This document shows positions 292 to 63,030 of a stretch of DNA of 64,000 nt, in pieces. The notes beneath the pieces are model-generated. The model was not told the origin of the DNA, searched no databases, and worked only from the letters and a program-made list of their open reading frames with translations. The DNA lies in assembly GCA_009602725.1 (NCBI GenBank), contig WELB01000087.1:475989-539988 (forward strand). The letters run 5' to 3'. Made by a program: the position numbers and the translations under genes. Within the stretch, counting starts at the first letter, position 1. Every line of letters starts with the position of its first letter. Source of the DNA: Spirogloea muscicola (taxonomy: Eukaryota; Streptophyta; Zygnematophyceae; Spirogloeales; Spirogloeaceae).

Positions 292-446
292 TGCTCGCCC
301 ATTGAGAATAGGGGCTGGAACAACCAGCCCGAAAAAGAATGAACAGAGTACGAGAAGGGGGCCAGGGCAAGCGCTAAGAAACAGACACAAAGCAGCTACG
401 AGACACTCAGTAACCCCTGCTAAGCAGCCGCAGATCAGAGATGATA
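292..446 (+). mobile_element. Hairpin repeat family copy 1
   Basis: It begins GCTCGCCCATTGAGAATAGG and carries the hairpin of the family at 311-330: GGGGCTGG, a 4-6 base loop, then CCAGCCC. The family body follows: GAATGAACAGAG, a purine-rich stretch, then CAGTAACCCCTGCTAAGCAG at about 409-428. The copy decays after the GCAGATCAGAGA box. The same order of blocks recurs near 32726, 49187, 60598, 62308 and 62984. It is a short non-autonomous element of unknown class. Confidence 0.75.
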
Positions 447-710
447 TAAGGGAGGCCAAGCCGGAGCCGCTACATTGGTCACGCGGAAGGCAAAGGTAGT
501 GCAAACGATGGGGCCCACACAACGCGAACTTTGGGCTAGGAGGCGCTAATCATTGGGAAATGCGCGCAGTTGTGGATGAAGTGAAAGGGAGGCCATATCA
601 AGCCAATGCACTTTTCGGGCAAAAGCTAGTGCAAAGATGGGGGCTCCTTGAAGCCCTTTACCACGGTGGGCTGAGGTAAGGCTTTTGCCGGCTGAAGGAG
701 TCCTTCAGTA

Positions 711-1318
711 CCCACGAGAGAGTGCATACAGATCCGACAGGCTAAGCTGTGTAGCTGGAGAACCGTCACACAAGCCAGTGGCCTGGCTTAGAGCGTCGTG
801 CTCAGCACGCTGATGTTTCCAAACCTTGGGAGTACTGCATCCTGAGCGATAGATGCACTCTGTCAAATGCAACTGATGCCTGCCAGATGATAAGTCTATT
901 CCAGGCTGTTCCCCAACTGTGATGACGCACGTCAACCAGCTGTTCAATGCTGAAGCAGGTAGGGTCATCTTGAACCGTAGCCGCCAGCTATGTTGCATGG
1001 ATGAAAGTGGTCTCCTTGGAGTTGGTCCTTGTCATGCCTCTCCTTCTTGTGCTCCGGCTTGTTGCCTAGCCAGGCACAGTCGAGGTGGGTGTTCCTGCTC
1101 TTTTAGCGTCAATGAACAAGGACACTGTCGAGGAGCGTTAAGGCCCACAGCTCCGGGGGCCACATCCAGACGCCTCAGAAAGCACAAAGGCATGCCGAGT
1201 TCATCAATAACAGGCATGATGCCTGTTACTCTCCATTGCTCTAAGCTAAGTTACTGGATTCCGTGGCGGTGCTCCGGCTCCCCAGATTAGCCTGTCGGAT
1301 GCGTGTGCTCACTCGTGG
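711..1318. mobile_element. TIR element (MITE-like), long copy
   Basis: The left end at 711-748 (CCACGAGAGAG, then ATCCGACAGGCTAAGCT) and the right end at 1284-1318 (AGATTAGCCTGTCGGAT, then CTCACTCGTGG) are inverted repeats about 35 bases long with a few mismatches. The inside, about 535 bases, has no convincing coding sequence. A shorter relative with the same ends and a shared inner block (GGCCTGGCTTAGAGCGT) lies at 47712-48000. No transposase is present, so it would move only with a helper. No target-site duplication was confirmed. Confidence 0.7.
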
Positions 1319-2999
1319 TTTCTGAAGCCCCCCCAAATAGGGGTTCGCTGCATGTAATTCCACTCTTAGCACTAGCTTTTGCCTGAACAGTGTGTTGGTT
1401 TAATTCGGCCTCATTTTCATTTTCTGCTCACAGCACACCTCCTCTTGCTGGATAATAATCAGCCCTGCCAACAATGCCATGTGTAGCATCTCTTAGGTAT
1501 TGCGATCAACTCTCTCAACACAACTAAGAGCTCATAATGGTGGAAGCCATGCTATACGTGCAGCTGCCATTCCAGGGTCAGAAAGCAAGTCTTAATGCAG
1601 CGATTACAGCTTGGGCTCTGGCTACAATAGCATGGCGCCACTGTCCTTTACATGAGCTGCTCTGGAACCTATCAACGTGAATTGCCCGCAGCATATTTCA
1701 GATATTTTCAAGTATGTCAATACGCCCGTAAGCTACATGATGGAGGGGTCGGGGTCGTTTCTAAGCGCATCTGGGGCCGATTTCCTTCTCTCACTTGGCT
1801 TTAAGATCAGATGTACAGCCCATCAATACAGAATTTTGAAAAGCAATCCAATAAACAGATGTCAATTCGTTTTGTGCCTTGAATGTACTGTATCAGGATT
1901 CCGACAGCAGCTCAGCCATAACACCGAATAGGTACCAATGAGTGAGCACATTATGAACTGGCTAACACGCTACCTTGGGGAGCACCGCGATGAAACCGGT
2001 GCCAACAGAAGGGCGTGTCCAGCACGCCGATGAATGGCTAGGACGAGCGGAGCTGCAGGCTCCTAGAGAAGGAGAATTGACTGTCAAAAGCCAGCCCAAG
2101 AAGGCGGTCTAGAGGAGCGGGAAAGCAGGAACAACTCAGCTAAGCAAGTGTCTATAATGGATGGCTGGCCGCTCAAGAACCCCTCGTCAAGTCTATATGA
2201 CTCAGAAGTAAGTATCTCACGACTCCTGTAATCACAAAATTATGAACATGGAACAGTCTAGTCAACAGTTTAGTCATTGAGCTGTGGTAGCCTAGTAGCC
2301 TGCCTCCGAAAGCAGAATTAGTGTCTACTGATGGAGCTACCGTCCTCTTCGTCCGCCTTCTTTTTTTCTTTCGGCTGGCCTTTCACAACCACCATCGCCC
2401 CCCATGCAGAAAAAAAACCACAGCTTCCGCATTGTTTGTGAATGGTCAGAGGCCAGCCCAGAAGAGGAAAGCGCGGCCAAATTGACTGGTGGCTGTGAGA
2501 GAGTAAGTGGCTCCCAATGTGGGCAAGGGCTGTGGAAGGCCAGCCTGGCTGGGAGAGGCCAGCCCAAAAGGAATGAATAAGGTTTCTGGGGAGAAGGTTC
2601 TGGACTGGAAAGCTTCCACATCCATGCCACAACAGCCTGATGGAGGCCGTGGCGTGGGCCCGAGAAGGGACGTCCACTTTGCCCCTGCCGTGCACCACTA
2701 GATCTTTTTCGAGGCTGCGAGGCCTCCACGTGGGCTCGCATTGGTACGACAGCTGTCGCGTCGGCATGAAGTTGGACGTCGATGACACGTGGCGCACGCG
2801 CCGAGGGGCGTCGTACGGCGGACGCCATTGGCCGGGAAGCCAAGAGGGGGAGCTCCAACGCCGCGGGGGGCCGCTCGGGTTCGAACCCCGGACCTGCTGA
2901 CGCCCTCGCCGCCGGGGGGGTCTCTCCCTCTCCCCGGGTTCTGCAGCGAGTCGTTACCAGAGATCTCGCTTATCAGCAACCGCCGTCCCCTCCCACACC
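1319..2999. other. Intergenic, decayed repeats
   Basis: No gene is supported here. At about 1935-2060 there is a degraded piece of the TIR family (GAGTGAGCACA and a block like CCAGCACGCCGATGAATGGC). From about 2440 to 2640 there are decayed pieces of the hairpin family, recognisable by repeated CCAGCCC boxes followed by A-rich sequence. Overlapping reading frames on both strands have no recognisable protein family. Confidence 0.5.
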
Positions 3000-3206
3000 C
3001 CGCCTGCATTCCTCCCAGCGTTCCCACTCCGCGACCGGTGACCCCGCCGCCGCCGGGCTGGCCATGGCCGCCGCCGCGCCGCCGCTGCAGCCGCCGCTGC
3101 CGCCGTNTCGGCGCAGCGTCGCCGCGGCCTCCACCACCGCCGCGGCCGCGACCGCAGCAGGCCCTGAGGCGAGGCTCGTCGGTAGCGGCCGGCAGGGGCG
3201 GCGGAG
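3000..3206 (+). promoter_or_regulatory. GC-rich 5' region of the PAS-Raf kinase gene
   Basis: GCC/GCG triplets run through this leader, with a single undetermined base at 3107. The stretch lies just upstream of the chosen start at 3207. It is read as promoter and 5' untranslated sequence. The reading frames through the triplets are low complexity and are not treated as protein. Confidence 0.45.
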
Positions 3207-6200: not shown

Positions 6201-9109
6201 GGCATCTCCCGTGGCAAGTACTCGTCGGGAGAAGACGACCCCATCACCTGGGAGATTCCTTGGCAGGAGCTGACTGTTCTGGAGCGAGTTGGTCAGGGTG
6301 AGCTGCCCTGTCTTGCAAACAACTTCACTGTCCCCCCCTTATGAGCACATCAATTGTGTACACGCAGAAACACAGTCTGCCTTGGCCATCACATACTGAA
6401 ACCCTGTAAACGACCACCATCAGGCAGCAGATACTTTGTGCCTGCATGTGACGTGCAAGCCATGACTGTGCAGGTTCAACTGCTACTGTGTACCACGGCC
6501 TCTGGCGGGGCTCAGTACGTGTGCTCGGCCCCACATGCTTGAATCCTGAACTTAAGCAGGAGTGACGAGGGACCAGGCAGAGCCAGGGTTGAAGGCTCTG
6601 GGTTTATGGTTCAGGGTTGGGAAAGGGTTTAGAGGTTGCACTACACTGTGTTGCCATGGCATTACATAGTATGAGCGCCAAGAGCATTTGGCTGGATGCT
6701 GTCACAAGTGGGTGCCAGTCATTATCATAATTGCAGTCAGACAACGGATTGCCCAGTAATTTGTGAATCTCGTTGCCTGACAGGACGTTGCCGTCAAGGT
6801 TTTTACCGAGCAGGAGTACAGCCCCCTGATGCTCGCTGAGATCAAAGACGAGGTAGCCTGAATATCATGTTTTCAGGGTGTGCAATGCCACTCTTTCTCA
6901 AGCAGGCTTAGCAAAGGTAGATACTATTCAGCACATAAGTGCTCAAACTGCTGTATGATATTGTGTACTTGACGTGCCTTTGGCCGCCACCATACTGATT
7001 GGAGTTGGCATTTACCTCTGTGCAATGTCAGACTACGATGATGAGGCGGCTGAGGCATCCAAATGTTCTACTTTTCATGGGCGCAACAACAACAGAAGAT
7101 CACCTCTCCATAGTAACCGAGTTCTTGCCAAGGTAAGACCTTTCCTTCACAAGTTTTTATGAGTATGACAAACATGGACTTGCATATCATCTGCAACAGA
7201 GACCGGTGCATTGTGCAATCTCTGATGAAGTAGCTGCTAAGTGCGGCAGGGGGAGCCTTTACCGCCTGCTGCATCGGAAGAAGGACAGCATCACTTGGCC
7301 TAGATGCTTGAGGATGGCACTAGACACAGTAAGACTTTTTGCAAGCAATTGCAGCAGTTGGAAGAACCTAACACCTTAATCTGGGACTTTCTTAAGTAGC
7401 ATGTTCACCGCTGTAATGACATTGATGACAGCATCCATTTGAACCTCAGTCTTGGTGTGGGGCAACCTCTGCGCATCTTTGGAGCTGAACAGTGAGCACA
7501 GCCTGGACTGCATCTTTCTTATGGAGTATATGGTCTGCCGTGAGCAGGCGAGGGGCATGGAGTACCTGCACCGCAGCAATCCTCCAATTGTACATCGCGA
7601 CTTAAAGTCATCCAACCTTCTTGTGGATAAGAACTGGACTGTCAAGGTATGTCGATCCCTTTGACTTCAGTTGAGGCAGGCATTGCTACTATACATCAAA
7701 ACAACGAAGCGGAATGAGAGTTGGGCCCATATTCATTCGAATTGTCTTCTGAAGACAATTAAGCCCTATTTACCCTTATCCGACTTGGAGCCTCACTGCA
7801 AGAATGTGAGAAGATGAGTTGGCTGTGTGCTGAGAGCTCAAGTCGCAGTAGCCATTCATTGAAAGTGCAGTGCCTCACTCTGATTTTGGTCATATCTCAC
7901 AAGGTGGGCGACTTTGGCATCTCGAGATTGAAACATGCCACATTCTTGACTGCCAGGTCTGGGAAGGGCACGGTGAGATCACTGCTCATTGGCTGGTGCT
8001 TAATGCCATTTTTAATTTGATTCACATACCTAGACTGACCCATTTTGTAGTTACTCATGCATCAGAGACATGCACAATAAAAGCATGTCCTACATATCAT
8101 GGTTGTGTGTTGCTTATGTGGCCTGTTGTGGAGAAGCCTGCTTATAGATTATGATATCCAATTCTTCTCTGCAGCCCCAATGGATGGCTCCTGAAGTTCT
8201 TCGCAATGACCCGTCTGATGAAATGTAACGTGCCCACATGCATGCTTGTGCTGCCCTGTATGTCGTTCCTTCTTTGATTAGCTGCTGTCAAGATCTTCAT
8301 CAATCAGGTGGTGCTGCTGACAAGTACCTTGATGCAGTGGTTCTGTATTGTCATACCCTTTCAAGAACTATGATGAGGTGGTTCTAATTTGTCATGACCT
8401 TCATGGTTTGCAGGTCGGACGTATATAGTTTTGGAGTCATACTGTGGGAGCTTGCAACAAAGCAGGTGCCCTGGGAGGGGCTCAACTCCATGCAGGTATA
8501 TTTTTATCTGGTCAGACTAGCAGTCATTGTCCACCCTCCCACTTACCTGGGTTCTGCCACTGAAGTGGTTTGACTGTGGCAATGACTATACATCTTCTTT
8601 GTATTCAAATTTTATTTTTGCTGACTTTGACTGTGCCATTGCAGGTTGTGGGAGCCGTTGGTTTCATGGAGCGTGCCCTTCCCATCCCGTCTGACATGGA
8701 GCCCAACATAGCAACACTCATAGAACGCTGCTGCAAGAGGTGCCTCCCCAGCCTCTGATGGGTTGAACTTAGTGTGTGGTGCATGTATGGCTGGTGCTTG
8801 AAGTTAAGCTCCCTTGCTGGTTAAAGCTTGCAATTGGTTTGAGATCTTAGAAGCTTGCTATTTAATATCTCTTTGTATGCCGCCGACACCGCTGCACGGG
8901 CAGTCCTTCAAGTCCTACAATACTGCGGTTGTTTCAAGCAGTCAACAACGCACGGAATTGTGAAGGTTGTTGATTGTGTTTGCTTGAATTTGACTTTGTG
9001 CTGCAGAGATCCCAAGGAAAGACCACCATTTCAGGAGATCAGTGCCATTTTGAAGGGCTTGCAGCTCCCTCTGACATCAAAGTCCGACAAGGTACATGCG
9101 GACCATTGA
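3207..9109 (+). CDS. PAS domain Raf-like protein kinase
   Basis: Fifteen exons join in phase: 3207-3293, 4123-4472, 4683-4952, 5142-5240, 5414-6297, 6474-6514, 6784-6852, 7032-7132, 7250-7328, 7548-7646, 7904-7972, 8175-8224, 8414-8495, 8645-8739 and 9007-9109, giving about 825 residues. In order they encode a short coiled coil ([12 protein letters not shown]), a PAS domain ([16 protein letters not shown] to TGIIGVACD), a long Ser/Gly-rich linker, and a Raf/MAP3K-type kinase domain. Kinase motifs seen are the glycine loop [17 protein letters not shown] with the catalytic lysine, [23 protein letters not shown] and [13 protein letters not shown]. Land-plant PAS-Raf kinases of this build take part in stress and hormone signalling; that role here is inference. 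All catalytic residues are present. The start is the first ATG reading into a clean donor, so the N-terminus is less certain than the rest. Confidence 0.9.
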
Positions 9110-9893
9110 GCAGTGACTACTGGGCGCCTCCATGTCCTGCAGTGGCACAGAGATACTTGTTTGCCGGGCGGTAGCAGCAGTGCCACATTGCTGCTCTCGT
9201 TGGGCTCGCCGTCAACCACCTCCATTGCTTTATTGGAGCACTGCCTGTGCTTTGACATCTATTTGTTGATGGTGTCGTCTCTCACGGACCCACCTTCCCC
9301 CCACCTTGCCCGCAAAAGCGCCCCACACGAGTCAGCCACCCCCGTGTCATGCTTTTCCAATTCCTCACAATTTACAAGGCCCTTACTCTGGCCTCTTTGC
9401 TTTTGAGTATCTTTAGCACAAGTGATTCGTGAGACGTTGAATTGAAGCACGAGAATATTGTGGGACCTATTAAGGCCTTGCTTGACAAGCGTCCCTACCC
9501 AACTGTTGATACTTGCCTACTTGCTTATATGTGACTGCGACATGAGCTGCCAACCGCCTGTGTCTTGCTCGAATCTGCTGCTGGAAGTCAGGAAGTCTCA
9601 GGAGAGAAAGAAGCGCATTCTTAAAGATACCTGCATTCCTATATTCCTATGTTGCTACTATGGTGTGGACTTTCATGGCCAACACCCCAGTTGAGAGTCT
9701 CTTCACCTGGCATTGCCAGGATGTAATAATTACTGTAAAGCACGTAATATGAACCCAGTACTGGTAGTTGCTCAAATATACACGTGACTCTGGGAACTAT
9801 GGGTTTACCTTAGGGCCATGGACTAGCTCACGGGCACAGTGCTAAAATAATCCCTTACAGCCGTAGTGCTCTGCTGCGCAGCATGGGCAACAA
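9110..9893. other. Convergent intergenic region
   Basis: This lies between the 3' ends of the kinase gene and elongin A copy A and should hold both 3' untranslated regions. Short frames on both strands match no family. No further feature is seen. Confidence 0.5.
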
Positions 9894-12269
9894 TCAGAGC
9901 AGGCCTTTGTTGCGGAGACCACGCAAGGCTGCTTGCCGGGTATGTTCTTGACCTTGACCTCGACCTCGGGCTATGGCGGCACTGGGCTTGAGTAGCAGGG
10001 ACCTACTGTTCACGTTGCGCCCCGCCAGGGTCACATCCATTGCCTTACTTGTTTCCTGCGCCCCACTGGTAGCAGCCGCCCGCCTTCTTGCAGCCATCGC
10101 TAGGTCCTCAGTGGCTGTTGGATGGAGGGGTCTGTGATGCATCGCGGGCATCGCAGCAGAACCAGGCCATGGCCTCTCAGGTGGGCCTGCGCGGAAGCTC
10201 TGAGGAGGTGCTTGGAGCCTTGCTTTGGCTGTTGCTGGCGGCGGTCGTAAACTCGCCTTCACCTTAGCTTCCAGGCTGAACCCGAACAACGAATTTGTCA
10301 GGATGAAGTGCTGTGGTGGCGCACCAGACTACACCAAGACACATTCTCTACTGTAGTGCAAGTCTTGGGTCATGTTCGCATCTAAATCCATCGCAAAGGC
10401 ACCCAACTCCTGCTGCATGTCTGAGAATGATTATGACAGGTCCTCGCAGCTGATGGCTTACTAGCTGTTATGCAACGAATAAACAGCAAAGGACGTTGCT
10501 GCAACAGTAACGAAGAAGTCACTCAACCTCATCTCCTGAGATGCACGGCATCGGCATCTAATGTAGCCACAAAGCCAAGAAGCCCTTGGTATATCGTGAT
10601 ACAATTTTGTACCTCTGGGCATACTCTTGCCGAGCTTTTTTCATGAGGCGGCCGCCACCCCCCTGCCCACCTGGAGGTCCACAGGCAATGAATAGCCCAT
10701 TGAAGGTGATAGAGGAAGTTACCTCAGCCAAGGAGTTTCCATGCAGTCTGTACTCGTCGGTGCATATGGTCAACTCTCGACTTTTCAAACCTCAGGCCAA
10801 CATCCTGGTTAGCCTAGCTGCGCGCCAACAAAGGAGGTGAGACATGAGAGCAGCACCTACCGCAAGCTGAGCCTGCCTGGACACCATTTGGGACTTGCCG
10901 TTTCCGAGTGCCGGGAGGTCTGAGCGTGCACAGCTGAATGCGCCGGCTCTGCTTGTCTGCAGGCTTGATTTCAGCAACATCAGAAAGAAAGGAATGGAAG
11001 AAGAGTAACACAATCTCGGCCTCCACTTGAGAAGGTGGGCTGATTGGGAACCAGAGTTGTGCACAAGAACTGCACCCAATGAGCATCACAGACCTCCTAT
11101 AGAAGTCAATAATGCCGGATGCGATTGCACCGCTGTGCCTGTGCTGGGCGTGCGGCACGTCAAACACCGAAGGGCAGCTTTACAGGTAGCAGACAAGTGG
11201 GCTCGAATGCCAGCTGCCGAATACAGGGGCAATGCCGGGCTTGAGTTGCTTACGACTTTCAGCCTCTAAATAGAGCTCCCGCAGGCGACTCGCGCACTGC
11301 CGCTGCGACTCCTCCTGCTCCTTGATCTTGGCCTGTGGCACACGCGTCCGATATATTCAGCCGCAGAGTGCACAGCTTTGCGGGTCAACCAATGCGCAAG
11401 TAGACTTTATCACACGGAGCATGATGGCGCCAGCCTGCAGCGGCAGGTCATAAGGGTCTGCAGCGGCAGGTCATAAGGGGCAGGTCATAAGGGGCTCACG
11501 TCGTGGAGAGTGCGCCAGCGGAAGAAGACACCGCGGCGCTGCATCCGCTCAGCCACGCCCTGCGCGGCGTCGGCGCCGAAGCGCCGCTGGTAGCAGTGCC
11601 GCCACAGCTCGTTGGTGACCGGGCTCAGGTCCCGACCCTGCCCAGCAATGGCCAAAAGCAATTAATGAAATCACATCATTCAAGGGAGTCATGTCTGGAA
11701 GAGGTTCTCAACGAGAAGGTGAACAATCTTTTCCAGTCACCGCGCCGAGAGCAAGCGGCGCCGCCGGGGACTCAGACGCCCACTTGCTGCCTCTATCTGG
11801 CCGGCGTGCACAGGCCAGCCGGTCGGTTATCCCCAATCGAAGGCAAACCACTTAGTGGGTGCTGGCTTCTGCCAGCGATACCACCCCGTCGGGGCTCTGG
11901 CGCCGCTCGGCGAGGCCTGCCTGCGGCCGGCCACGAGGCGCTGCCAGCCGCCACCACCCGGGCCGCGGCACCCGAGACCCTCAAGCCCCAAACCCCAAAC
12001 CCTAAAAGCTAAGACCTAGGTTCGAATCCTGTCACCTCGATGTCCTGCTTTGTTTTCTGGACCGGCTCTACGGGGCCGGGAGAGAGCGGGCGCACGGCGG
12101 TGGCGTCCTCGATGGCGGCGAGCTGGTCGGCGGTGCAGTGCACGAGGATGGCGGCCAGCAGCGCAGCGTCAGTGTCGCCCACGTCGCCGATGGCGTCCAG
12201 GTTGTCGATCAGCGCCCGCTTGCACAGCTCCTGCAGCGCCAGCGGCCCGCCGCCGGGGGTGGCCGCCAT
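9894..12269 (-). CDS. ELOA: Elongin A-like transcription factor, copy A
   Basis: The first exon, 12269 to 12096, encodes MAATPGGGPLALQELCKRAL and reads on to IGDVGDTDAALL and HCTADQLAAIEDATA. The second, 11637 to 11500, encodes GRDLSPVTNELW, RRFGADAAQGVAERM and FFRWRTLHD. Together these reproduce the N-terminal Elongin_A domain (compare human ELOA: LGDVGETD, HCTVDQL, GRDLSPVT). The third exon begins AKIKEQEESQRQCASRLREL. Later blocks (DKQSRRIQLCT, RLMKKARQEYAQR) resemble the C-terminal half of plant elongin A, and a basic tail ends at the stop at 9894. Elongin A works in the nucleus on RNA polymerase II elongation and as a substrate receptor for cullin ligases. Middle exon borders are only approximate. 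A second copy lies just upstream in tandem. Confidence 0.8.
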
Positions 12270-12400
12270 TGCAGCGGCGGCGCGGTGGCGCGCCCCAGAA
12301 TTTAAGCCATAAACCCTAAGCCGCAAACTCTAGATTCTTGGGAGGCGGCCCCCGCGGCCCGCGCCGCAACGGATCCCGCTCAGCGCTGCGAGGGCGGGGC
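10609..12400. repeat. Tandem duplication, unit A
   Basis: This block aligns with 12977-14739 base for base over long stretches. From the first elongin exon to the end of the block (about 12060-12400 against 14410-14739) I see no difference. Introns and the second exon differ by scattered substitutions and small insertions. The unit takes in the elongin A promoter, leader and all exons except the last. Confidence 0.85.
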
Positions 12401-12427
12401 TGGCGCAGCCCCGGCGCCCCCGCCGCC

Positions 12428-12976: not shown

Positions 12977-14608
12977 GTACCTCTGGGCATACTCTTGCCG
13001 AGCTTTCTTCATGAGGCGGCCGCCACCCCCCTGCCCACCTGGAGGTCCACAGGCCATTTAATAGCCCATTAAAGGTGATAGAGGAAGTTACCTCGGCCAA
13101 GGAGACTTCATGCAGTCTGTACTCGTTGATGCATATGGTCAACTCCCGACTTTTGAAACCTCAGGCTAACATCCTGGTGTGCCTAGCTGCACGCCAATGA
13201 AGGAGGTGAGACATGAGGGCAGCACCTACCACAAGCCGAGCCTGCCCGGACACCGACTGCCGCTGGCCGCTTTCGAGTGCCGGGAGGTCTGAGCGTGCAC
13301 AGCTGAATGCGCCGGCTCTGCTTGTCTGCAGGATCAAAAACAGCAAAACAGATATGCAAAATTGGAAGAACAGTAACACAATCTCCGGCCTCCACTTGAG
13401 AAGGTGGACTGGTTGGGTACCAGAGTCGTGCATAAGAACCGCACCCAATGGGCATCGCAGTCCTTCTCATGAAGTCGATAATGCAGAATGCAATTGCACA
13501 CTGCCGTCCCTGTGCTGGGCGGCAGGATTGCTCAATCACCAGAGGGCAGCTTTCACAGGAAGCAGACAAGTGGGCTCGCATGCCAGCTACCGAATACAGG
13601 GGCAATGCCGGGCTTGAGTTGCTTACAATTCTCGGCCTCTAGATAGAGCTCCCGCAGGCGACTCGCGCACTGCCGCTGCGACTCCTCCTGCTCCTTGATC
13701 TTGGCCTGTGGCACACGCGTCCAACATACACCGCCGCAGAGTGCGCAGCTTGCGGGTCAGGCGTTTATGCAAGTAGAGTTCATCATACGGAGCATGACGG
13801 CGCCAGCCTGCAGCGGCGGTCCATGTGGGTCTGAAGGCTCACATCGTGGAGGGTGCGCCAGCGGAAGAAGACGCCGCGGCGCTGCATCCGCTCGGCGACG
13901 CGCTGCGCGGCGTCGGCGCCGAAGCGCCGCCGGTAGCAGTGCCGCCACAGCTCGTTGGTCACCGGGCTCAGGTCCCGGCCCTGCCCAGCAACGGTACAAA
14001 GCAATTGAAGAGAACACGTCAACTTATGGAATTACGTTTGGAAGAGGTTCTCAATGAGTACGTGAAACCTACTTTCCAGTCACCGCAGTAAGAGCAAGCA
14101 GCGCCGCCGGAAGCTCAGACGCCCACTTGCTGCCACTTTCTGGCTGGCGTGCACAGGCCAGCCGATCGTCCATCCCCCATTGGGGGCGAACCATTGGATG
14201 GGCGCTGGCTTCTGCCGGCGCCCACAGCCACCGAGGCTCTGGGCGCCGCTCGGCGAGGCCTGCCTGCACTGGCCACGAGGCACTGCCAGCCGCCACAACC
14301 CAGGCAGCGGCACCCGAAACCCTTAACCCTTAAACACTAATCCTTAGACCTAGGTTCGAATCCTGTCACCTCCATGTCCTGCTGATCTTTCCGGACTGTC
14401 TCTGCGAAGCGGGGCCGGGAGAGAGCGGGCGCACGGCGGTGGCGTCCTCGATGGCGGCGAGCTGGTCGGCGGTGCAGTGCACGAGGATGGCGGCCAGCAG
14501 CGCAGCGTCAGTGTCGCCCACGTCGCCGATGGCGTCCAGGTTGTCGATCAGCGCCCGCTTGCACAGCTCCTGCAGCGCCAGCGGCCCGCCGCCGGGGGTG
14601 GCCGCCAT
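12977..14608 (-). CDS. ELOA: Elongin A-like, copy B (3' end lost in the gap)
   Basis: Exon 1 (14608 to 14435) looks identical to that of copy A. Exon 2 (13980 to 13843) encodes GRDLSPVTNELW, CYRRRFGADAAQRVAERM and FFRWRTLHD, and differs from copy A at two residues (R for Q, R for G). Exon 3 again begins AKIKEQEESQRQ. The MKKARQEYAQRY exon runs to the edge of the N gap, so the C-terminal exon cannot be seen. The exons that can be read are intact with normal splice sites. Two explanations remain: a true tandem paralogue, or two alleles placed side by side by the assembler. Confidence 0.75.
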
Positions 14609-14739
14609 TGCAGCGGCGGCGCGGTGGCGCGCCCCAGAATTTAAGCCATAAACCCTAAGCCGCAAACTCTAGATTCTTGGGAGGCGGCCCCCGCGGCCCG
14701 CGCCGCAACGGATCCCGCTCAGCGCTGCGAGGGCGGGGC
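12977..14739. repeat. Tandem duplication, unit B
   Basis: Partner of 10609-12400. Identity ends abruptly at 14739, where copy A turns to other GC-rich sequence and soon enters the N gap. Confidence 0.85.
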
Positions 14740-15468: not shown

Positions 15469-20602
<5,134 letters not shown>

Positions 20603-20615
20603 CGCACAGACGGAT

Positions 20616-20646
<31 letters not shown>

Positions 20647-25552: not shown

Positions 25553-25808
25553 TCCAGCTGGTTGTTCCAGCCCCTATTCTCAATGGGCGAGCACTTTCTT
25601 CTTCTTTCATTCGGGAGAGCCCTCGCTGCTGCCTCTGGCTCTGTCCAGGGGACCCACTTCCAGGACCCTAGCCTCTCTGATTTGCGGCTGCTTAGCAGGG
25701 GTTACTGAGTAATTTGTAGCTGCTTTCTTTCTTTGTGTGCTTTGGTTTCTTAGCGCTTCCTCTGGCTTCCTCTGGCCCCCTTCTCGTTCTTTGTTCATTC
25801 TTTTTTGG
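25553..25808 (-). mobile_element. Hairpin repeat family, young copy cut by a gap
   Basis: A hairpin remnant and the GGGCGAGC block lie at 25556-25594. From 25610 the sequence (GGGAGAGCCCTCGCTGCTGC and on) runs without visible difference from 60407-60598 until it meets the N gap at 25809. The reverse complement of 62630-62812 matches it equally well. Such near-identity between distant loci points to recent movement or recent conversion. Confidence 0.8.
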
Positions 25809-26082: not shown

Positions 26083-29000
26083 ATGACCATTAAGCTCACC
26101 CCGGAGCTCGTCACCGCGCTCGGTCACGCTCGGCGAGACGGCTTGGCCACCAGAATCCGCCTCGGAGCGGCCCAAGCTGAGCATGTGAGTCGTCCTGCTC
26201 AGTTGCTGGCCTGTCAATCCGATCCATCCTATGCCGCCTCGCACAGCGGCACCCGGTCGCAGATTGCCCGCATGTCTCGTCATTGCGCTTTCGGCTTAGC
26301 AAGGAGCTAGCTTGATGCTCGCTTGTACAGAATCCAGCAGGTAGTCCTTGAAGACTGCACCTGTCCTGGCTGCAAGCAGGTCATTCAAGTTGGCGACGAA
26401 GAATTCCAGTTCTCAGCAGCGCCTGAGGCGGGTGAGAACTTTGACTGCTACTGCGAGGAGGCATCCACCAGCTCAGGGAACAAGACACTCGTCGAGGCCG
26501 GGAGCATATGGAGGAAGCTCTCCGTCCTGCGAATCCTGACAACCACTGAAAAGGATCGTTGGAAGAAGCGCTCTGACGAGGCCGAGAAGGCGCAGAAAGC
26601 GCGCAAGTACGAGTTGCTTGGTAGCACATTCTAATCTGCAACAATGCAATGGCACGATGTCATTCACATCCAAGTAGTGCTTCACATCTCCTTAAAATTG
26701 TCAATCGTCACAGAAGATTACCCCACCTTTGTGGCATATGCTGGTGTGTCATTGGAAGCTTGCGATTGTTCATGTCGCGAAGGTCATCATCTAATGTGAT
26801 GACTGTTTCTTGCAGGGTCATTGTCATGCCGACTCCCCTTGTGGCTCCTCAAACAGCAGGTTAGACTCCAGCTTCCTAGTCCTGCCTGGTCTTTCAGATC
26901 TTGATGATGGAAACAGCCGGGAGCAGGCTTGAAGCAACTTCTTGAACTGAAGTAACGTCAATTACTAGATTGCGTCGCCTTACTTGACGTGCCACTGATT
27001 GTATGTATGGAGCATTCATTTTTGGTACCTGACAACCATTAGGCAGCTGGTTTAGGTGCTCGTAAGACCACTGCAGGCAAAGCCAAGGTTCACTTTGAAA
27101 ACAAGCGTCAGAAGCTCACCAGTGGTAAAACAAGCGCCCATCTTCCACGTACGAATGCAATGCTGGTCATTTATTGGAAACATTATAACAGTCTCGTTTT
27201 TACATGTAATCTGTGATTAGTATGGGCTACAAATCAAGCAACAAGCGACTCTAAGTGCATCAGCAGGCTTTGGCATATGTCCTGTCTACAGATGACATGA
27301 GTTCGTCATGTCCGGGCCTGATATGCTCGATAAGGCATACCCTACAGGGCAATCTGTTGCTGTCAGACATTCAGGAGCAGCTGATGTGACGGCGAAGCAA
27401 AAACGACCACTATCAGATGCTACTACAATGCCCCCGCCAAAGCACCAGGTCGTCTTGAAGGACAAGACTCCAAGCCCGGCTCCTTGTGCCAGCAGTCCTG
27501 GAGACAGTCTGTCTTCCAGGTCAAATTCAGCAGGTAGAGACAAGACACAAAGTCCTGGAGAAGGGCAAGCAGGAGGTGTATCAATGAGGCAAGGTACTAC
27601 CGAAGTCGGAGGTCAAGATCTGAAGCAGCTGCTACTCAAGATCCTCTCTGAGGTCCCAAGAGGGATCTCATTCAAGGTCAATACATTCCATATGATGCTG
27701 AAGGTGCTGCAATTTGGTGCCTGCATTGCTGTCTCTACATGCTCAGGATGCTCGTTCAACTGATGCTGAAGCTGGAGCTCAATCTCACTCCTATGGTCTA
27801 GTCATGTTGTCAACAGGCCATTGAGAAAGCAGTAGGAGAAGCAAAGTCGTCAAAGGTTGACAAGCAGGTCATTGACAGACATTTGAAGCAGGTAAGACAA
27901 GACACGATGTGTGCAAGGCTGACTTCTTCTAGTCCATAACCAGGACAGTGCCCACTGCAGCTCAGGGCCATTAGTGTCAGATGTACTTTGTGCTCACGCC
28001 TACTATTTATAAGAGCTACTTGCATCTGGATGCGGGCAAGAGAACTTTCAGCAAAACCTTGGTATGTGCTGGTTACATTATATGCAGCTGGCAGTGTATA
28101 AGGCCCCTGGCTTATGGCGATTGAAGCCAGATGTGGCAGAGGGTAGCTTGGTCAAGGCAAGTCAAAGCACAAGCAGGTAAGCGTCGAACTCCACTTCGTT
28201 ATGCTCCTACCCTTGCTTGGAGAGCTTGGATGGATGCACTGCACACCAGCCTTCCTCAAGTTGCAGACTCTAAGAATACATCCCTGTGTCTTGCAGCTCA
28301 CCCGACACCTTGCCAACAACACCCCCTCTGTTCAACTCAGACTCTCCTGCTGTTACAGCACTGCCCTTGGAGCCACGCAAGGTAGAAGGTCTTGAAGAAG
28401 GCAACTACATTGTAGGACCCGTGAGGGAGATGAAGGAGCCGCCTTCAATTGAGGCAACTACAGGCTCCTCAAAAGACGGAATGGAAGAGGGTGACCAAGC
28501 AAACAGGCCAGATAGGGAAGGAAGGCCTCAGGGTAATGGACAGATTGCAGGGACCAGTGATGAATTAGCAAAGTCAGAGCCTGAACAGTTGAAGTCCTGT
28601 GGTACCCTTGACCTACTAGAACGAGGACGAGAAGAGGACCAGCTGCGTAAAGAGTCGCAGGCAGACCAACAGAGGGGAGGTGACGTAGAGGTGGCGCAAG
28701 TTCCTAGCAAACATGCCAAGAAGCTATCAAGAAGTGGGAGCTTGAGACACCGACATCAGAAGGATACACTGCCAGGGAAGGAAGGTCAACCTCCCAGCAG
28801 CGAAGAGAGTGGAAGTGAGAGTGACTCTGGCAGTGACAGTGGCTCTGAATCTGGCACTGGCACTGATAGTGAAAGTGGGTCTGGTAGCGGAAGTGAGAGT
28901 GAGGAGGAAGATGAAGATGTGGATGTTGATGTGGGCGATGACGAGGACGGACAACAAAGAAAGGGAAAGCCGAAGTTGCGGCACTCTCTGTCGTCTGCTG

Positions 29001-31631: not shown

Positions 31632-33140
31632 AGGCTATCTCCACGTCCTCATCCATATTGCGTCGTCTTTCCAAAGACCTTGTGTCGCAAACGCTGTTAT
31701 TTGCCTGCCTCACTGGCTTGACTGACGCTAACTGCCCTGTATTTACAGCAGATGAACCTTGTCGTCACCCACAAGCGCAAAAGCATGTCAGTGCATGCCC
31801 TGCGGTGGCGCGCATCGTTCTAAGAAGAAGAAGTGCTCATGCATCAACGTGCTCAATCATGCATTCGTTGGCGCCACGAGTGGAGGGGGCGAGGGGCGAT
31901 CCCGTGCGCTCGACCAAGAGTCTTGCACGGTGTAGGTGGCGTTGGCCTTGGTTGAGTTTGATAAGGCAGCCGCAGAAGAGTCACCATTTTAGCTTATGGA
32001 GGCCGGCTATTGGCAGTGCGAGCCACTTTGCTTGGTCCGAAAAAGTGGCTCCCAAATAACCAAAGGCGATAATTTGTATGCGATTGCAAGAGGAGGTGCG
32101 TGCAGGTCGCATAGGCGACAATGTGGGGCAGGGCATGCTTTGGCGGTTGAAATGATGGTGGCGGTGGCGGTGTTGGAGGCCAGATGGTCGTGAGGACCTT
32201 GCAGAGGGCAGCTGATCTGTAGCCCCATGTGTGTGCCCCCACGCCTTGGCGTGTCTGCAGCAGAGAGCAGCTCAACTTGGAACCATAGGAGAGGATCAGG
32301 GACCCGCCGCAAAGGCACTTCAATGGTAGAAGCGACTCCAAGGTCTCAACTGCGCATACAGACTGGGGACCTTGCTGCGGACCTTGCTCAAGTCAATGTG
32401 GGCTGGCTTTCCACAGCCCTCAACCCCAATTGAAGAGCTGCTTTTTCCAAGAAATAGCGCTTCTATTGTAAGGCAATAGCTGTGAGAAATTGCTCGCCCA
32501 CAGAGAAAGAGGGGCTAGCAAAGCCAGCCCAAAGGAGTATACAAGGTTTCAAAAAGCCGGATGGCGCGAAAAGCAGGAAATCATCTTCTTCAAAGAGGAA
32601 AGCTTGGGGTGGATGGCTCCGGCCCCTTCAGACCTAGTCCATTCCTCTGGGCGCTTTCTTCTGTGGGCTCGGCTCCTTCAGACCTTGTCCATACCTCTGA
32701 AGAAAGTGCTCGCCCATTGAGGATAGGGGCTGGAAAAGCCAGCCCAAAAAAGAATGAACAGAGTACGAGAAGTGGGCCAGGGGAAGCGACCTTGTCCACT
32801 CCTTTGGGCGCGCTTCTTTCCCAGCCACCAGTCAAGGCTTTCTTTCCTTTTGGGCTGGCCTCTCTATGGGCGAGCTCTTCTCTCATACACACACACTCAC
32901 TCTCATTTCTTCTTCTTCTTACAGCGATAGCTGTCAGGTCACTGTGGAAGAGATGTATCACCAAATGGCTATCTTGAAGTCGCCCCAAAAATATGACAAA
33001 TCCGAAGAGGCCGGAGAAGGCAAGTAGAAGTAGAAGCTCCAAGCTGCTCGAGGCAAACGCTGCCAGAGCTCTGCCAGGCCGTGGCCCAGAGCTGCTCGCT
33101 CCTCGCGCGGGGGGCCGTCGTAGCCGGCCGGCCGGCTTGC
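31632..33140. other. Intergenic with hairpin repeat pieces
   Basis: No gene is seen from 31632 to 32480. From about 32480 to 32870 there is a cluster of hairpin-family fragments: a decayed piece at 32495-32600, then GCTCGCCCATTGAGGATAGG with the full hairpin at 32726-32745, a truncated body, and more CCAGCCC-type boxes. A CACACA tract follows at about 32890. Confidence 0.55.
32708..32800 (+). mobile_element. Hairpin repeat family copy, truncated
   Basis: The hairpin GGGGCTGG-AAAAG-CCAGCCC lies at 32726-32745 and the body GAATGAACAGAGTACGAGAA follows. It breaks off at about 32790, before the CTGCTAAGCAG box, into unrelated sequence. Confidence 0.7.
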
Positions 33141-33159: not shown

Positions 33160-33198
<39 letters not shown>

Positions 33199-33477: not shown

Positions 33478-33572
33478 GTGAACCTAAACCTGACCTAAAC
33501 CTGACCTAAACCTTAACCTTGAAATCTAAAGCTGAACGGAACGTTCACCTAAACCTAAACCTAAACCTAGAC
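33478..33572. repeat. Interstitial telomere-like repeat
   Basis: CCTAAA units recur: AACCTGACCTAAACCTGACC, then three CCTAAA units and a CCTAGA from about 33549. These are six-base variants of the plant-type CCCTAAA telomere unit, in degenerate tandem. Weaker traces occur near 11975-12008, 14310-14345, 14860 and 50233. Confidence 0.65.
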
Positions 33573-46670: not shown

Positions 46671-46805
46671 TATAGCAGCGCTCCGGCCACCTGGCTAGAA
46701 GCGGCGAAGATGGCCCGGCAGCTCAAGCCTCCAGTACTCGCGGCGACGCAGCTCCGAGGGCCGGCGTTGCCTAGACAGGCCCCGGCCAGCCAGCTGCGCC
46801 GCCTT

Positions 46806-48135: not shown

Positions 48136-49160
48136 CATGGGCACCGCCCGCCTTTCTCTCAAAGTGCAACTAACACCGGCGGAGTGCTGGTACGCGCGAG
48201 CTGCGACTAAGACGATGCGCATAAAATAGCTGGACCAGATGCTGGAGGAAGGACCAAATCTCACCGTAGCCACCGTTTCAGTGTCCATAGCGCACGGATA
48301 GAAGTAGTCTCCTCGGGGATAGTCCTTGTTGTTAGCCTTCTGGACGACTCGTTGACATGTTGTTGAGTCCTTTGCAGTCCCTCACTCGTCCTGAACTCTT
48401 TCCTTCTCCAGGAGCTGTCAAGGAGCGCGAGAATCCTAGACAAACAGATGTTGCTTTTGACTCTCTGTAATAACTCCTCAAAGCACTTCGCCAGTACCAG
48501 GAAGACGAACGCTTCTCTAGTGAAAATATACATCTAATATAACCCCTCCTCTGAGCCCTGTGCTGCTGACATGTTTGCGGCAGCAGCTGCAGGCTGATTC
48601 TTGCACCTCTGTGCTAGGTGCGCACGAGCTGCAGTACTGGGCCGCTTAGGGGAGGAGTCATCCCACTCTCCTGTCCAGTTTGATTGGGGGCCGATTGTGA
48701 CTTGGCTTGCATACGAGGCCAATAAGTTCCACGCGACTGCTGGTTGCATCCCATGGTGAACTGAGTGTTCTCCGCGCCCTTCTCAACTTTCAATCTTTAT
48801 AGGCGATCCTGCGCTGGCCCCTCACGGCCATGTCACCTTGATAGGTCCAAGTTCCCTCCTTCAGGTGTGGCCACTACCAGCCACAGCTGCCTTCGAAGCG
48901 TCCTCGACCATATCACCGACGGCTCCTGTGGTTGCACCTTCACCCTGTGTGAGGAGCTCAAGAGTTGGTGGAGTGGCCCACAGTGGAGAGGGCTGCAGCG
49001 ATAAGTGGTCCCATGCACCTCTTATCGTGGAGCCCAGCCAGCCCAAAGCCGAGCACAAGAAGCTTCGGATCTCATTCGGTCTTTTGTGGGCTGACTTTTC
49101 CCAGCCCTCGTCCCTTGCGGAAGAGCTGCTTCTCTCCTCTTTGGGGCTGACTTTTTGCAA
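48136..49160. other. Intergenic
   Basis: No gene is supported. Several frames of about 60 to 130 residues overlap on both strands without family features. Confidence 0.45.
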
Positions 49161-49164
49161 GAGA

Positions 49165-49480
49165 AAGGACTCGCTTATTGAGGATAGGGGCTGGACAAGC
49201 CAGCCCAAAAAAGAATGAACAAAGCGCGAGAAGGGGGCCAGGGGAAGCGCTAAGAAAGACAAGCAAACAAATAAACCAAGGAGCTACGAATCACTCAGTA
49301 CCCCCTGCTAAGCAGGCGCAGGGTCAGAGAAGCTAGGCTCCTGGAAGTAGGTCCTCTGACCAGGGCCAGAGGCAGCAGCGAGGGCTCTGCCGGCACGCAG
49401 GTGCAGCGCTCGGGCCATGGACCGCTGCAGCGAGACGTTCAGGCGCATACGGTACACTTGCGCCAGCGACGCCTCTCCCC
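49165..49480 (+). mobile_element. Hairpin repeat family copy, long form
   Basis: The hairpin GGGGCTGG-ACAAG-CCAGCCC is at 49187-49206. The body follows with GAATGAACAAAGCGCGAGAA and CAGTACCCCCTGCTAAGCAG, then CCAGAGGCAGCAGCGAGGGC and an extra module to about 49478. Read on the minus strand that module encodes SLAQVYRMRLNVSLQRSMAR and ALHLRAGRALAAASG. The same module is present at 60320-60420, 60838-60955 and 62540-62612. Confidence 0.75.
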
Positions 49481-52916: not shown

Positions 52917-54466
52917 TGCACACATTGCCCTGCATGGTTACTCCACGAAGGCAACGCGGGCCCCGCAAGCTTTTTCCGACCTCTTTATATTAGGATGGGG
53001 TTTGAGGAATTTCCTAATGCCTTCATGCCCCTGTGCCAGCTAGATTACTGTTCAGTTTCGGCCCATTTGGCCGCTGAGTAGTTGCCCATTGCTTTGTACG
53101 GATAGGGAATAAGTGACAAGTACTTGCATGCTAAGAGATTAACTTTTGGAGCGCCACAGACAAAATTTGACGTACTGCTTGAAGTTCTGTGCCAACCTTG
53201 GCGCCGCAACTTATCAGCGACGCGCGCATCACCATCCAACACTTTGCAACGTTTTGGGTCAGTCAACTTGGGTCAATGCCTGACGGGCAATGCTCTAGAA
53301 TGCCTCAAGCGTTTGCAAATGGCACCCAGAAAATTGTGTTTGGGTAACAGTGCCGGGATTCTTTCTTTCTGATCGTCCATGTCCTCTTTCTTTTCCATTT
53401 ACTTTTGCCAGCCTAGCCTCGACCCGTCAACAGTGGACCGCAGGTTGGGAGAACGGTGACTACCAGTATATTGGTGTGAATAGGTAGTGTACCTTCAGCC
53501 GTACAGTATAGAAGCCTTATAAACTCTCTAATCGTAAACGCGAGTTGCTCAAGCAACTACAGTGGCACATGCCCCTTGGGAGATCAGGGACAGGCTGACA
53601 AAAATTAGCAATATACAGCGCAACGCCTCAATGGGAGGCAACTGAGAACAAAATAAGGAGAGAAGAGAGGACTACTACCAGCACTCAGCCGCACAATGCA
53701 CGAATGCATTTGCAAGCGCAAAGATGCAATGCAGCGCACAACTGCATGCTCGCGTCTTGCTGGCCGCCTGTCCACAGAGGAGCGCTGACACTGTAGCGCT
53801 GCCCTGAACCTGGATAGGGCTCTCACTTTATGGGAGCCAGAGAAGTTGCCGCTTAATCAGAGGCATCTGCACCAAGCACCCTGCATAGCTTCCCAGTCAG
53901 CCCAGCTCAGGCCCACCATTCGCATAGTGGACCCAGAGGTCCACAGCGACAAGCCGAGCGCTTGCAGGCCGCAACATGGCCTGGCGCCCCACAATCACCT
54001 CAAGCTCACACCTCTGGTTCCATCAAGCCGAAAGCGCGAAGGATGGGCTGCTGATTGCGTCCTGAGCTTGCTTTGTATGACCATCCAAGCATTGTCCATC
54101 CAGAGTGGCTCTGGCCTATGACGGCGTCTCAGATCCCATGGCGAGGCCTCCAACAGGAATCTCAGCAACCGCAGAGGCCCAGTCGCTACTACGGTTTCTG
54201 TGCAGCATTGTCAAGTGCGAGGCGCTTGTCGTACTGTCCTTAAGGCTCCTCTGATCAGGCTGGCCCTCTCCCCTAACCAACCTTGGTGACAAGAGGAGCT
54301 TCCCTCCTCTGCAAAAACAGCAGGAATCCTCATTATCACAGACATGCCAAAACTTTGTGCCCACAGACATTGCTTGACCAGATGCTTGTTACCAAACACA
54401 CAGTGCCAGTATTGTGCAGATCCTGTGACAAACCCTGCAACAGGAAGGAAAACTTGGAGCTCTCAC
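52917..54466. other. Intergenic / unresolved 3' part of the histidine kinase
   Basis: From 52917 to about 53850 nothing is recognised. From 53850 to 54466 the minus strand probably holds the last exons of the histidine kinase gene, but no frame shows receiver-domain residues clearly and no end could be set. Confidence 0.4.
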
Positions 54467-59240: not shown

Positions 59241-60254
59241 GCGCCCGCGTCAGGCGCAAGCCATCGGCAGCCGAGGAGCACGGCACGCGGGCTGCGCAGG
59301 GTGCGCGGCCAGCGGCAGCGCCGCCGCCCGGTGGGCTTGGAGGCAACGGAGGCTGCGGGCAATGGCGGCGCCGCCGCTTCAAGCGGCGGCTCATCATCAT
59401 CATTCGTGTGGGCCAGTCGTCACCCCCCTGCGCACAGCCGCATCGCCGCTAGCTGAGTTGGCGGCACCACCAAGTTGGCGGCGTGCAATCCGATCATCAT
59501 CTTCAAGGGCAGCCGCTGCGGACCGTCCGCGGCCCCACCTATGTGCCGCTGGCCCCGCCAGATTAGCTCCGGTTCAACGAAGTAAGCTCATCATCTAGGT
59601 GGTGAGGTGCTGTTAAAGCCGAAACTCCGAAAGAGGACTCCGGCACCATGGGATCAGCTTCCGGCTGTAAAAAGCCAGCCCGAAAAGAATGAAAAAAGGT
59701 CCAAAGGCGCCGGTCGAAGGAGATTTTCTTCATCTAGAACAGAAACTAAAGAGAATCGAATCTCATCCAAAGAGGGGCGATGGCCGTGAAGGAGTGAACT
59801 CTTCCAAAAGGGCGGGTGCTGTGAAATTAGATGTGGCTCTCTCAATGGGGTCAAGGGCTGTTAATGAAAAGCTAAGCTCTTCCAAAGGGGGCTGTGAGAA
59901 GCCAGCCCGAAAAAAAAGGACAGCGCTTCTCGTAAAGAGTCAACAAGGTCCAAAGGGGCCGAAAAGAGCTGAGTTATATTATTCAGCAATAACCATGTAG
60001 GATAATTACTTATAACCTCCAGTTAGTCGCCGCAAGTCAGAATCACTAGCTGCCGGAAAGAACTGGCTCTCCCGAATGGGCAAGACGAAACAGCTTCTTC
60101 TTCTTTGGAGCACTTCGCTTGGAAAGAGAGAGAGAAGGCGCGCGGGGCGCATGAATTGAAAGAGAGAAAGTGGTTCCCAAGGGCTCTCGAGACGAGTTCT
60201 TCCCGTTGGCAATTGACATCCATGGGGCACTGGGCGCTCGGTGGCTTGAGCTAC
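59241..60254. other. Repeat-rich intergenic region
   Basis: At 59241-59600 lies GC-rich sequence upstream of the histidine kinase. From 59650 to 60000 there are at least three decayed hairpin-family boxes (AAAGCCAGCCCGAAAAGAAT and similar) mixed with CTCTTCCAAA motifs. No gene is supported. Confidence 0.5.
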
Positions 60255-60660
60255 TTAACCAGCTCGCCCGCCACGCAATCGCCCGTCGCTTCCATGGTGA
60301 ACCGGTAGACTTTCCTGCAGCCGGGTCGCTGGCGCAAGTGTATCGCATGCGCTTGGCCGTCTCGCTGCAGAGGTCCATGGCCCGTGCGCTGCACCTTCGT
60401 GCCGGGAGAGCCCTCGCTGCTGCCTCTGGCTCTGTCCAGGGGACCCACTTCCAGGACCCTAGCCTCTCTGATTTGCGGCTGCTTAGCAGGGGTTACTGAG
60501 TAATTTGTAGCTGCTTTCTTTCTTTGTGTGCTTTGGTTTCTTAGCGCTTCCTCTGGCTTCCTCTGGCCCCCTTCTCGTTCTTTGTTCATTCTTTTTTGGG
60601 CTGGCTTGTCCAGCCCCTATCCTCAATGGGCGAGCCCTTTCTTCTCTATGGGCGAGCACT
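60255..60660 (-). mobile_element. Hairpin repeat family, young long copy
   Basis: In reverse orientation, the hairpin GGGCTGG-CTTGT-CCAGCCCC is at 60598-60617 with CTCAATGGGCGAGC after it. The body, 60407-60598, looks identical to 25610-25808. The extra module at 60320-60420 encodes on the plus strand AAGSLAQVYRMRLAVSLQRS, MARALHLRAGRALAAASG and further to LSDLRLLSRGY with a stop at 60499, an open frame from about 60170. Confidence 0.8.
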
Positions 60661-62299
60661 TCTTTATCCCAAGGGGGCGAAGGCAGTAAATGGCCAGCAG
60701 AATAAGAAATACGAGGTCCGAAGGGGCCAAAAATTGCTTCTCAGAATTTTCGGTAGGATATTCACTTAGTAGCGTCTGGTAAGAAGCAGCAAATCAGAAA
60801 GACTAGCAGTCGGAAGCAATCACCCTGACCCTGAAAGCCAGAGGCTGCAGCTAGAGCTCGGCCAGCACGCAGATGCACGCCGTGGGCCATGGGATTGCTG
60901 GAGTTATAAGGACAGGCGCATGCGAAATACCTGCGCTAGCGAGCCAGCGGCGCTGAAGTTGGTCTGCTCGCCTCGCCTCCGGGACACAGCGCGTCGTGCA
61001 GGCGGGGCCAACAGGCTGGAAAAGAAAAGAGCCCTTCCAAAGGAGGAGCTTACTCCTTCAAGGAAATTGCTTTCTGGCGGCTAGCCTTCCTGATTTGTGG
61101 CTACTAAGTAGAGGTCACTATATGATTAGCTTAAAAGATCCTAGCTTAGTCATGCCTTACAGGGCTTCTCGGCCCCTTTGGACCTTGTCAATGCTTTTCG
61201 GACTGGCTGTTCACAGCCCGCGCCCCCTTTGAGAGAGCCACTTTCTCTTCCAAAAGGTGAGCTCTCGCCACATTCTTCCAATGGAAGAGGCTTCTCCCAA
61301 AGAAGGAGTAGAATGTGCATCGAGTGTTGGAGGGCCTGAGTGGCTCAAGTACGAAGGCAAGCACATTGACAGACCTGCTGCTAAGCTGACCCGCTCAGTA
61401 ACCACGAGTCAGCACATAGAGGTCGCTAACTGATGCCCAAATACTGGACGACAATTGACAAGCTCTTGTGCCACCAGCTAAGGCTCGACTAGCTTTCTAA
61501 TGCGAAGCATGAGCCTGAGCTCGCTGCAAACAGGCTGACATACACCATCGCAAATTGACAAATAGGTCATAGGCTGCCGGCATGCCCATCTGGACTGGAA
61601 GTGGCTTTCCCCAAAGAAGAACGACTCTTTCAGTGGTGGGCGTTTGCGTTTGCCAGCCCAGACAAAGAATGAGTGAAGTTCGATGGGGCCAAAAAAGCGT
61701 AGAAGAGAAGAGCGTACAAAGACACAGCGACTCCAGTGGCCACTGCTCAATATGCCCTGGTGAGTAGCTAAAGTGGGCGACGGTTGTGGACAGCCAGCCC
61801 GAAGAATTTGACAAGGTCCGAAGGGGCCAAAAAGCGGTTCCCCAAAGTTTTCCATGTAGGATGATCACTTACTCGTGTTAGGAGCAAGTCCAATGGGGCG
61901 GAGGCTGTGAAGTAAAGTGGCTCTGCCAAAGGCGGCGAGGGCTGTGACAGCCCGAAAGAGAAGTGAGACTCTTCCAGTGAAGGTGTTCCTGAAGCATTGA
62001 CAAGGTCCGGAGGAGCCGGACAACAGTCCATTTACAAAAGCCAGGGGCTGCGGCTAAAGGCCCTACCCAAACAGACTGGACGAGGTCCAAATGACTGAAA
62101 CCGCTGGGTCCGGGTCCCGAAGAGATGTTCTCTTCTTGCTAGGTCCGGATGCGCCGCCAGCGGCAGGGGCCGCCGCCGCTACATGTGGCGGCAAGCTGGT
62201 AGGCCGCAGCCCCCAATGCCGTACCGCGCGAGCGGCGGCCGTCCCGTGGATGGCCCACGGGGTCACCCCCTCTGGAGTCAGAAGAAAGGGCTCGCCCAT
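60661..62299. repeat. Cluster of decayed hairpin-family fragments
   Basis: CCAGCCCGAA boxes, CTCTTCCAAAGGGGG-type motifs and GACAAGGTCCGAAGGGGCC-type motifs recur at about 60700, 61020, 61210, 61795 and 61950. A fragment at 60838-60955 carries a broken version of the VYRMRL module. No host gene is recognised here. Confidence 0.55.
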
Positions 62300-62620
62300 T
62301 GAGGATAGGGGCTGGACAAGCCAGCCCAAAAAAGAAGAAGAAGTGGCACTCCCAATGGGGGCAAGGGCTGCGAAAAGCCAGCCCAAAAAGAATTCACAAA
62401 GGTTCAGAGGGGCCTAAGAGCGGTGAGCAGCTACAAAGGGGCCTGAGGATGCAATGGTAAAACAGGGGGAGGATGGATCACTCAATAAGTACGAGTGAGG
62501 AGCCTCAGATCCGACAGACTAGCTGCCGGGAAGCTATCACCCTGACGAAAGCCAGAGCCCGCAGCGAGAGCACGGCCAGCTCGCAGATGCAGAGCGTGGG
62601 CCATGGACCGCTGCAGGGAT
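62288..62620 (+). mobile_element. Hairpin repeat family pieces and TIR-like end
   Basis: The hairpin at 62308-62327 is preceded by GCTCGCCCATTGAGGATAGG. At 62490-62530 lies a TIR-family end (ACGAGTGAGGAGCCTCAGAT, then CCGACAGACTAGCTG), directly followed by the AGAGCACGGCCAGCTCGCAG module, so the two families meet here. Confidence 0.6.
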
Positions 62621-62621
62621 A

Positions 62622-63030
62622 AAAAAGAATGAACAAAGAACGAGAAGGGGGCCAGAGGAAGCCAGAGGAAGCGCTAAGAAACCAAAGCACACAAAGAAAG
62701 AAAGCAGCTACAAATTACTCAGTAACCCCTGCTAAGCAGCCGCAAATCAGAGAGGCTAGGGTCCTGGAAGTGGGTCCCCTGGACAGAGCCAGAGGCAGCA
62801 GCGAGGAGCTCTGGAGAGCCCTCGCTGCTGCCTCTGGCGCTGGCCAGGGGACACACTTCCAGGAGCCCAGCATCTCTGATCTGCGGCTGCTTAGCAGGGG
62901 TTACTGAGTGTCTCGTAGCAGCTTTGTTTCTGTTACTTAGCGCTTTCCCTGGCCCCCTTCTCGTACTCTGTTCATTCTTTTTCGGGCTGGTTGTTCCAGC
63001 CCCTATTCTCAATGGGCGAGCACTTTCTTC
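62622..63030. repeat. Long inverted repeat of two hairpin-family copies
   Basis: The left arm 62625-62815 (GAATGAACAAAGAACGAGAA to GAGGCAGCAGCGAGG) and the right arm 62816-62983 (GAGAGCCCTCGCTGCTGCCT to CTCTGTTCATTC) are inverted copies, almost touching at 62812-62822. The right arm keeps the hairpin at 62984-63003; in the left arm that part is missing. A transcript across both would fold into a stem of about 170 pairs. Confidence 0.8.

Follow-up and report, generated by a model that had tools for sequence, protein, structure and literature searches.

A hairpin repeat dispersed through a 153-Mb genome, interpreted as truncated 3' ends of a LINE

Dualen/RandI elements occur in green algae. The early-branching LINEs with a restriction-like endonuclease include R2, R4, NeSL, HERO, CRE and Utopia (PMC5678591, PMC4640811), and Dualen/RandI is likewise described as a LINE with a restriction-like endonuclease (PMC4640811). 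Recognition of a 3' stem-loop is described for ZfL2-1 and ZfL2-2 of zebrafish, which are LINEs of the stringent type (PMC4176376).

The repeats analysed here, found in a 64-kb stretch of DNA (the window) and across the genome to which it belongs, are almost certainly the 3' ends of a LINE (non-LTR retrotransposon), with a sense strand opposite to the one on which the original prediction had read them. Several features mark them as 5'-truncated copies: the 3' end is fixed and the 5' ends are graded, a coding sequence and its stop lie upstream of the hairpin, direct repeats occur at the flanks, and relatives in the same genome bear a reverse transcriptase (RT). Literature searches found neither the 14-mer block that accompanies the hairpin nor anything on restriction-like-endonuclease LINEs together with green algae; among the papers listed, none dealt with this LINE family either, which does not make the family undescribed.

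Copies in the window and across the genome

Exact hairpins start at 312, 32727, 49188, 60598, 62309 and 62984, that is, at all six sites for which recurrence had been claimed, where dinucleotide shuffles lead one to expect 0.01 and none of 100 shuffles reaches six. The block said to flank them, the 14-mer GCTCGCCCATTGAG, is exact beside five of the six and has three mismatches at 49169; it is additionally found at 25579-25592. A second block, GAATGAACA, likewise comes after five of the six hairpins, the copy at 62309 stopping short of it. Copies occupy both strands, as had been stated: those at 293, 32708, 49169 and 62290 share one strand, and those at 25592, 60635 and 63021 have the opposite orientation. 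The hairpin of a supposedly decayed copy at 25556 proved not to be decayed: the copy is cut inside the stem and has the flanking repeat CTTTCATTC. In the genome (153 Mb, 471 contigs), a hairpin pattern that admits loops of 3-8 bases, and so includes hairpins of related families, has 9,160 places (reversed-pattern control, 1), and the exact 14-mer occurs 6,752 times (3,341 + 3,411; reversed control, 0 + 1), so that the repeat is not limited to one scaffold.

Read in the sense direction, a copy runs from the end of an open reading frame (ORF) through its stop into a 3' UTR that contains a GGGCUGG-loop-CCAGCCC hairpin; after the hairpin come the block CUCAAUGGGCGAGC and the short tail CUUUCUUC. 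The common fixed end of the copies is …CTCAATGGGCGAGC[A/C]CTTTCTTC, and the opposite end is cut at graded points. The copies compared came from the window and from 20 contig-1 regions, which were picked for listed copies and are hence copy-rich. Partners sharing the fixed end were found for 48 of the 51 copies compared; among these 51 the shared part mostly starts 4-14 bases ahead of the 14-mer, and homology stops at many points. The mobile-repeat part of the original prediction is borne out, in that the copies are dispersed and have one end in common. Its description as devoid of terminal inverted repeats, a poly-A tail or a tRNA head fits the copies as they were then viewed, and misses the tail CTTTCTTC on the opposite strand.

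A recognisable body accompanies 68 of 69 tail anchors. Length to the anchor runs from 12 to 495 nt, with a median of 54.5, in the 62 sampled copies that remain when own references are left out; the other six of the 68 are their own reference, so that their lengths (including 1,569 and 455 nt) only mark the reference cut, and with all 68 copies the median is 68. Past the anchor, the bases of CTTTCTTC are conserved up to position 9-10, beyond which composition is unremarkable. Most of the sampled copies amount to a short, truncated LINE tail.

Table 1. LINE-derived copies in the window
Feature	Position	Strand	Remarks
5'-truncated LINE 3' end	283..443	-	body 293-443; hairpin 312-330; flanking repeat CTTATAT; tail edge approximate
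LINE 3' end cut in hairpin stem	25557..25601	+	flanking repeat CTTTCATTC
LINE ORF end and 3' UTR fragment	25612..25808	+	100% identical to 60403-60599; runs into N at hairpin
Diverged short LINE 3' end	32482..32533	-	42 nt to anchor
LINE 3' end	32698..32788	-	81 nt to anchor; hairpin 32727-32745
Tail-only LINE insertion	32862..32885	+	14 nt to anchor; edges approximate
LINE ORF C-terminus and 3' UTR	49160..49470	-	hairpin 49188-49206; mutated tail block
Longest family copy in the window	60190..60645	+	ORF C-terminus, stop, 3' UTR, hairpin 60598-60616, tail
LINE 3' end	62280..62336	-	47 nt to anchor; hairpin 62309-62327
3' end of related LINE family	62345..62418	-	adjoins the 62280..62336 copy; TGGGAGTGC tail
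LINE fragment without hairpin	62621..62806	-	100% complementary to 60412-60597
LINE ORF end and 3' UTR	62815..63031	+	hairpin 62984-63002; flanking repeat TCTGGAG

Three LINE pieces of 186 nt (25621-25806, 60412-60597 and 62621-62806) are 100% identical, and diverged C-termini of other LINE families lie near the 60635 copy, at 60769-61017 (44% identity) and 61398-61610 (38%). Elsewhere the window holds a tandem duplication (10609-12370 and 12977-14709; period about 2.34-2.37 kb, pieces 76-100% identical), a telomere-like degenerate AACCTA repeat (33481-33569) and a low-complexity open frame of 778 aa with no Pfam match (28274-30610), possibly a host gene. Pfam matched none of ten window ORFs, and the window gave no hit in Rfam (at the gathering threshold) or in a tRNA scan.

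Coding sequence and relatives with reverse transcriptase

Longer copies enter a reading frame that ends …SISDLRLLSRGY*. At one locus (L013:1214-2668, minus strand) this is a 484-aa frame ending ...SISDLRLLSRGY with a TGA stop; it begins downstream of the RT core, and the distance from the start of the TGA to that of the hairpin is 79 nt. The internal palindrome CTGCTAAGCAG of the original prediction dissolves into part of the last ORF codons, being the reverse of codons in LLSRG. When the L013 protein was run by tblastn against the window and 28 loci, 81 pieces at 26-100% identity were obtained (window 60191-60496, an ORF C-terminus, is 94% identical to query residues 383-484); of the 76 pieces that remain when five in overlapping loci are left out, 54 begin no earlier than residue 380 and 39 stop precisely at residue 484, counts in which pieces of one copy may recur.

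The C-terminal fragments carry a knuckle, C-x-C-x12-H-x3-C (by eye), and RxxD(L/I)V...DVV.T(D/E)...KY-like motifs, which suggest a restriction-like endonuclease; Pfam and PDB searches of the C-terminal part gave no match. A motif-A pattern of RT has 116 places in the genome (reversed control, 0). Ten motif-A loci were cut out, with frames partly broken and partly open, L030 being the same element as L017. The L017 frame at 7454-9334 (minus strand) is a 70% match to the L013 protein over 156 aa, and the L017 C-terminus, in another frame, is a 60% match over 284 aa; the RT-like region of L017 reaches 25.5 bits to RVT_1, below the Pfam cut-off, and the L017 3' UTR is of a different type from that of the hairpin family. 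Two hand-picked open frames, P0005 and P0006, exceed the RVT_1 cut-off of 29.6, with 42.9 and 49.5 bits, and an N-terminal finger, CxxC-x12-HxxxC, was seen by eye in P0004, P0005 and P0006; P0006 has a long N stretch and is open at its start. Exo_endo_phos had no match in P0005 or P0006, the two RT-bearing frames scanned, and in the genome the apurinic-type endonuclease PF14529 had 0 matches and PF03372 had 10 (best, 39 bits), which revealed no abundant partner. Among the copies read, none joins finger, RT, endonuclease motif and hairpin end contiguously. The RT-bearing relatives probably mobilise the hairpin copies, the source copy of the hairpin family not being among the elements read.

Among the 150 of 985 PF00078 candidates that were scored, the top matches are mostly about 480 bp and look LTR-type; equal-scoring RVT_1 matches lie in 1,237-aa open frames (e.g. 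C33:908349-908831 and C235:98040-98522), which are probably LTR elements.

The preponderance of short copies in the sample could also reflect a SINE, or another short non-autonomous family with a borrowed LINE tail, and the 6,752 14-mers far exceed the 116 motif-A places, a rough ratio given that the two patterns differ in strictness. However, neither a length peak nor a shared 5' head is obvious in the 68 copies, the longer ones enter one and the same ORF, and an ARAGORN scan of the window gave no tRNA gene; we regard a SINE as very improbable.

The 3' hairpin and insertion

Hairpin loops among the copies include TTGTT, CTTGT, CTTTT and CTTTG. Related families with other tails have the hairpin with longer loops, and the hairpin is missing from the ends of some further LINE families in the same loci. 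The inner hairpin is predicted in all four folded copies of family A (z -3.2, -2.3, -1.8 and -4.0), while two sequences of another family type had no excess fold stability (z 0.39 and -0.65). An outer helix, GUUCAUU/AAUGGGC, between the two flanking blocks belongs to the minimum-energy structure of two of the four A copies; a similar one appears in the third in the centroid only, and the fourth, with a mutated block, pairs otherwise. We do not claim this helix, which is absent from the consensus fold of 11 hand-picked sequences of five family types and has no two-sided changes; family E pairs in its columns only when shifted by one place. Covariation across 11 sequences (0 of 13 tested pairs changed on both sides, shuffles not exceeded) neither supports nor opposes the stem, as the stems are well kept and hardly vary. 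By analogy with the stem-loop recognition of the zebrafish LINEs (PMC4176376), we think that the hairpin may serve as a start signal for reverse transcription.

Direct repeats of at least 7 bp flank 22 of the 68 copies against 4.9 expected per shuffled set, and those of at least 9 bp flank nine against 0.9. At 5-6 bp the number of matches (23) does not exceed that in shuffles (28.6), and 23 of the 68 copies have no flanking repeat of at least 5 bp. In many copies the repeats are about 7-12 bp and variable in length, with clear examples in the window at 293 (CTTATAT), 25592 (CTTTCATTC) and 63021 (TCTGGAG). An 11-bp match at 32708 is a doubtful target-site duplication, since some bases separate it from the tail and the surrounding sequence is apparently other LINE-derived DNA. 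At L026, a very short tail splits a LINE copy between two TCTATGG words, and at the same point the L013 and window 60635 copies hold a single TCCATGG. Because many of the repeats start pyrimidine-rich, it is uncertain where precisely the tail gives way to the target.

We infer that the hairpin is recognised and that early stopping causes the truncation: the LINE protein would bind the 3' hairpin and tail of its own RNA and nick pyrimidine-rich target DNA, and target-primed reverse transcription would begin at the hairpin or tail and usually halt early, giving short copies.

The original prediction had suggested a Helitron-like or otherwise unusual non-autonomous element. On a Helitron reading the hairpin would be the 3' terminal hairpin, and it does lie near the fixed end, with terminal inverted repeats not obvious. 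Against this stand the graded other end, the LINE coding sequence before the hairpin and the RT-encoding relatives, and a Helitron is expected to leave no target-site duplication, whereas flanking repeats are in excess here; a search with Helitron_like_N (Rep) gave 0 matches, but its control was silent too, so that it proves little by itself. A Helitron origin is therefore hardly credible. Introner-like elements (spreading introns) are similarly far-fetched, for although the pyrimidine-rich sense tail CTTTCTTC might be taken to resemble a 3' splice-site tract, the 5' ends are not fixed, so that a constant 5' splice site is lacking, and copies use both strands and in some cases sit inside one another.

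Host and comparison with known LINEs

The truncated-LINE reading makes of an apparently unclassifiable repeat a LINE family: the hairpin repeat is an ordinary kind of element, heavily truncated and seen from the wrong strand, and hairpin repeats need to be read on both strands. The host is photosynthetic, as indicated by 68 matches to the chlorophyll a/b-binding family, and is probably a green alga of streptophyte type. At L029 (1343-1935) lies the 3' half of an 18S rRNA gene, which we take to be streptophyte-like in appearance and which, by eye, breaks off into LINE-like sequence. We put forward only tentatively, and with more doubt than confidence, that restriction-like-endonuclease LINEs of a diverse and so far undescribed lineage inhabit the genome of this green alga, probably of streptophyte type, that they share one 3'-UTR plan (hairpin, TGGG-type block and CTTTCTTC tail), and that their extreme 5' truncation has scattered hairpin tags, nearly identical and numbering in the thousands, across the genome. 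If the endonuclease type and the host hold, an early-branching LINE type would be added in the green lineage; the 3' hairpin would then be an obvious recognition signal, and the very short insertions could report how target-primed reverse transcription fails.

Among the known systems, the zebrafish ZfL2 elements have a different type of endonuclease. Dualen also has an apurinic-type endonuclease, for which P0005 and P0006 gave no match, though P0006 may extend upstream. ZfL2-1 and ZfL2-2 belong to the L2 clade and resemble the elements here in a conserved hairpin near the 3' end, which in the present elements is a putative recognition site and has other loops in the related families. Unlike R2-type LINEs, the sampled copies show no single target gene, and the knuckle is C-x-C-x12-H-x3-C here versus CX2-3CX7-8HX4C in the known restriction-like-endonuclease LINEs (PMC5678591). 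With R2, R4, NeSL, HERO, CRE and Utopia the elements share an N-terminal zinc finger and a middle RT, and they resemble them in a putative CCHC-like knuckle at the C-terminus, after which comes a candidate D...D...K/Y-type motif.
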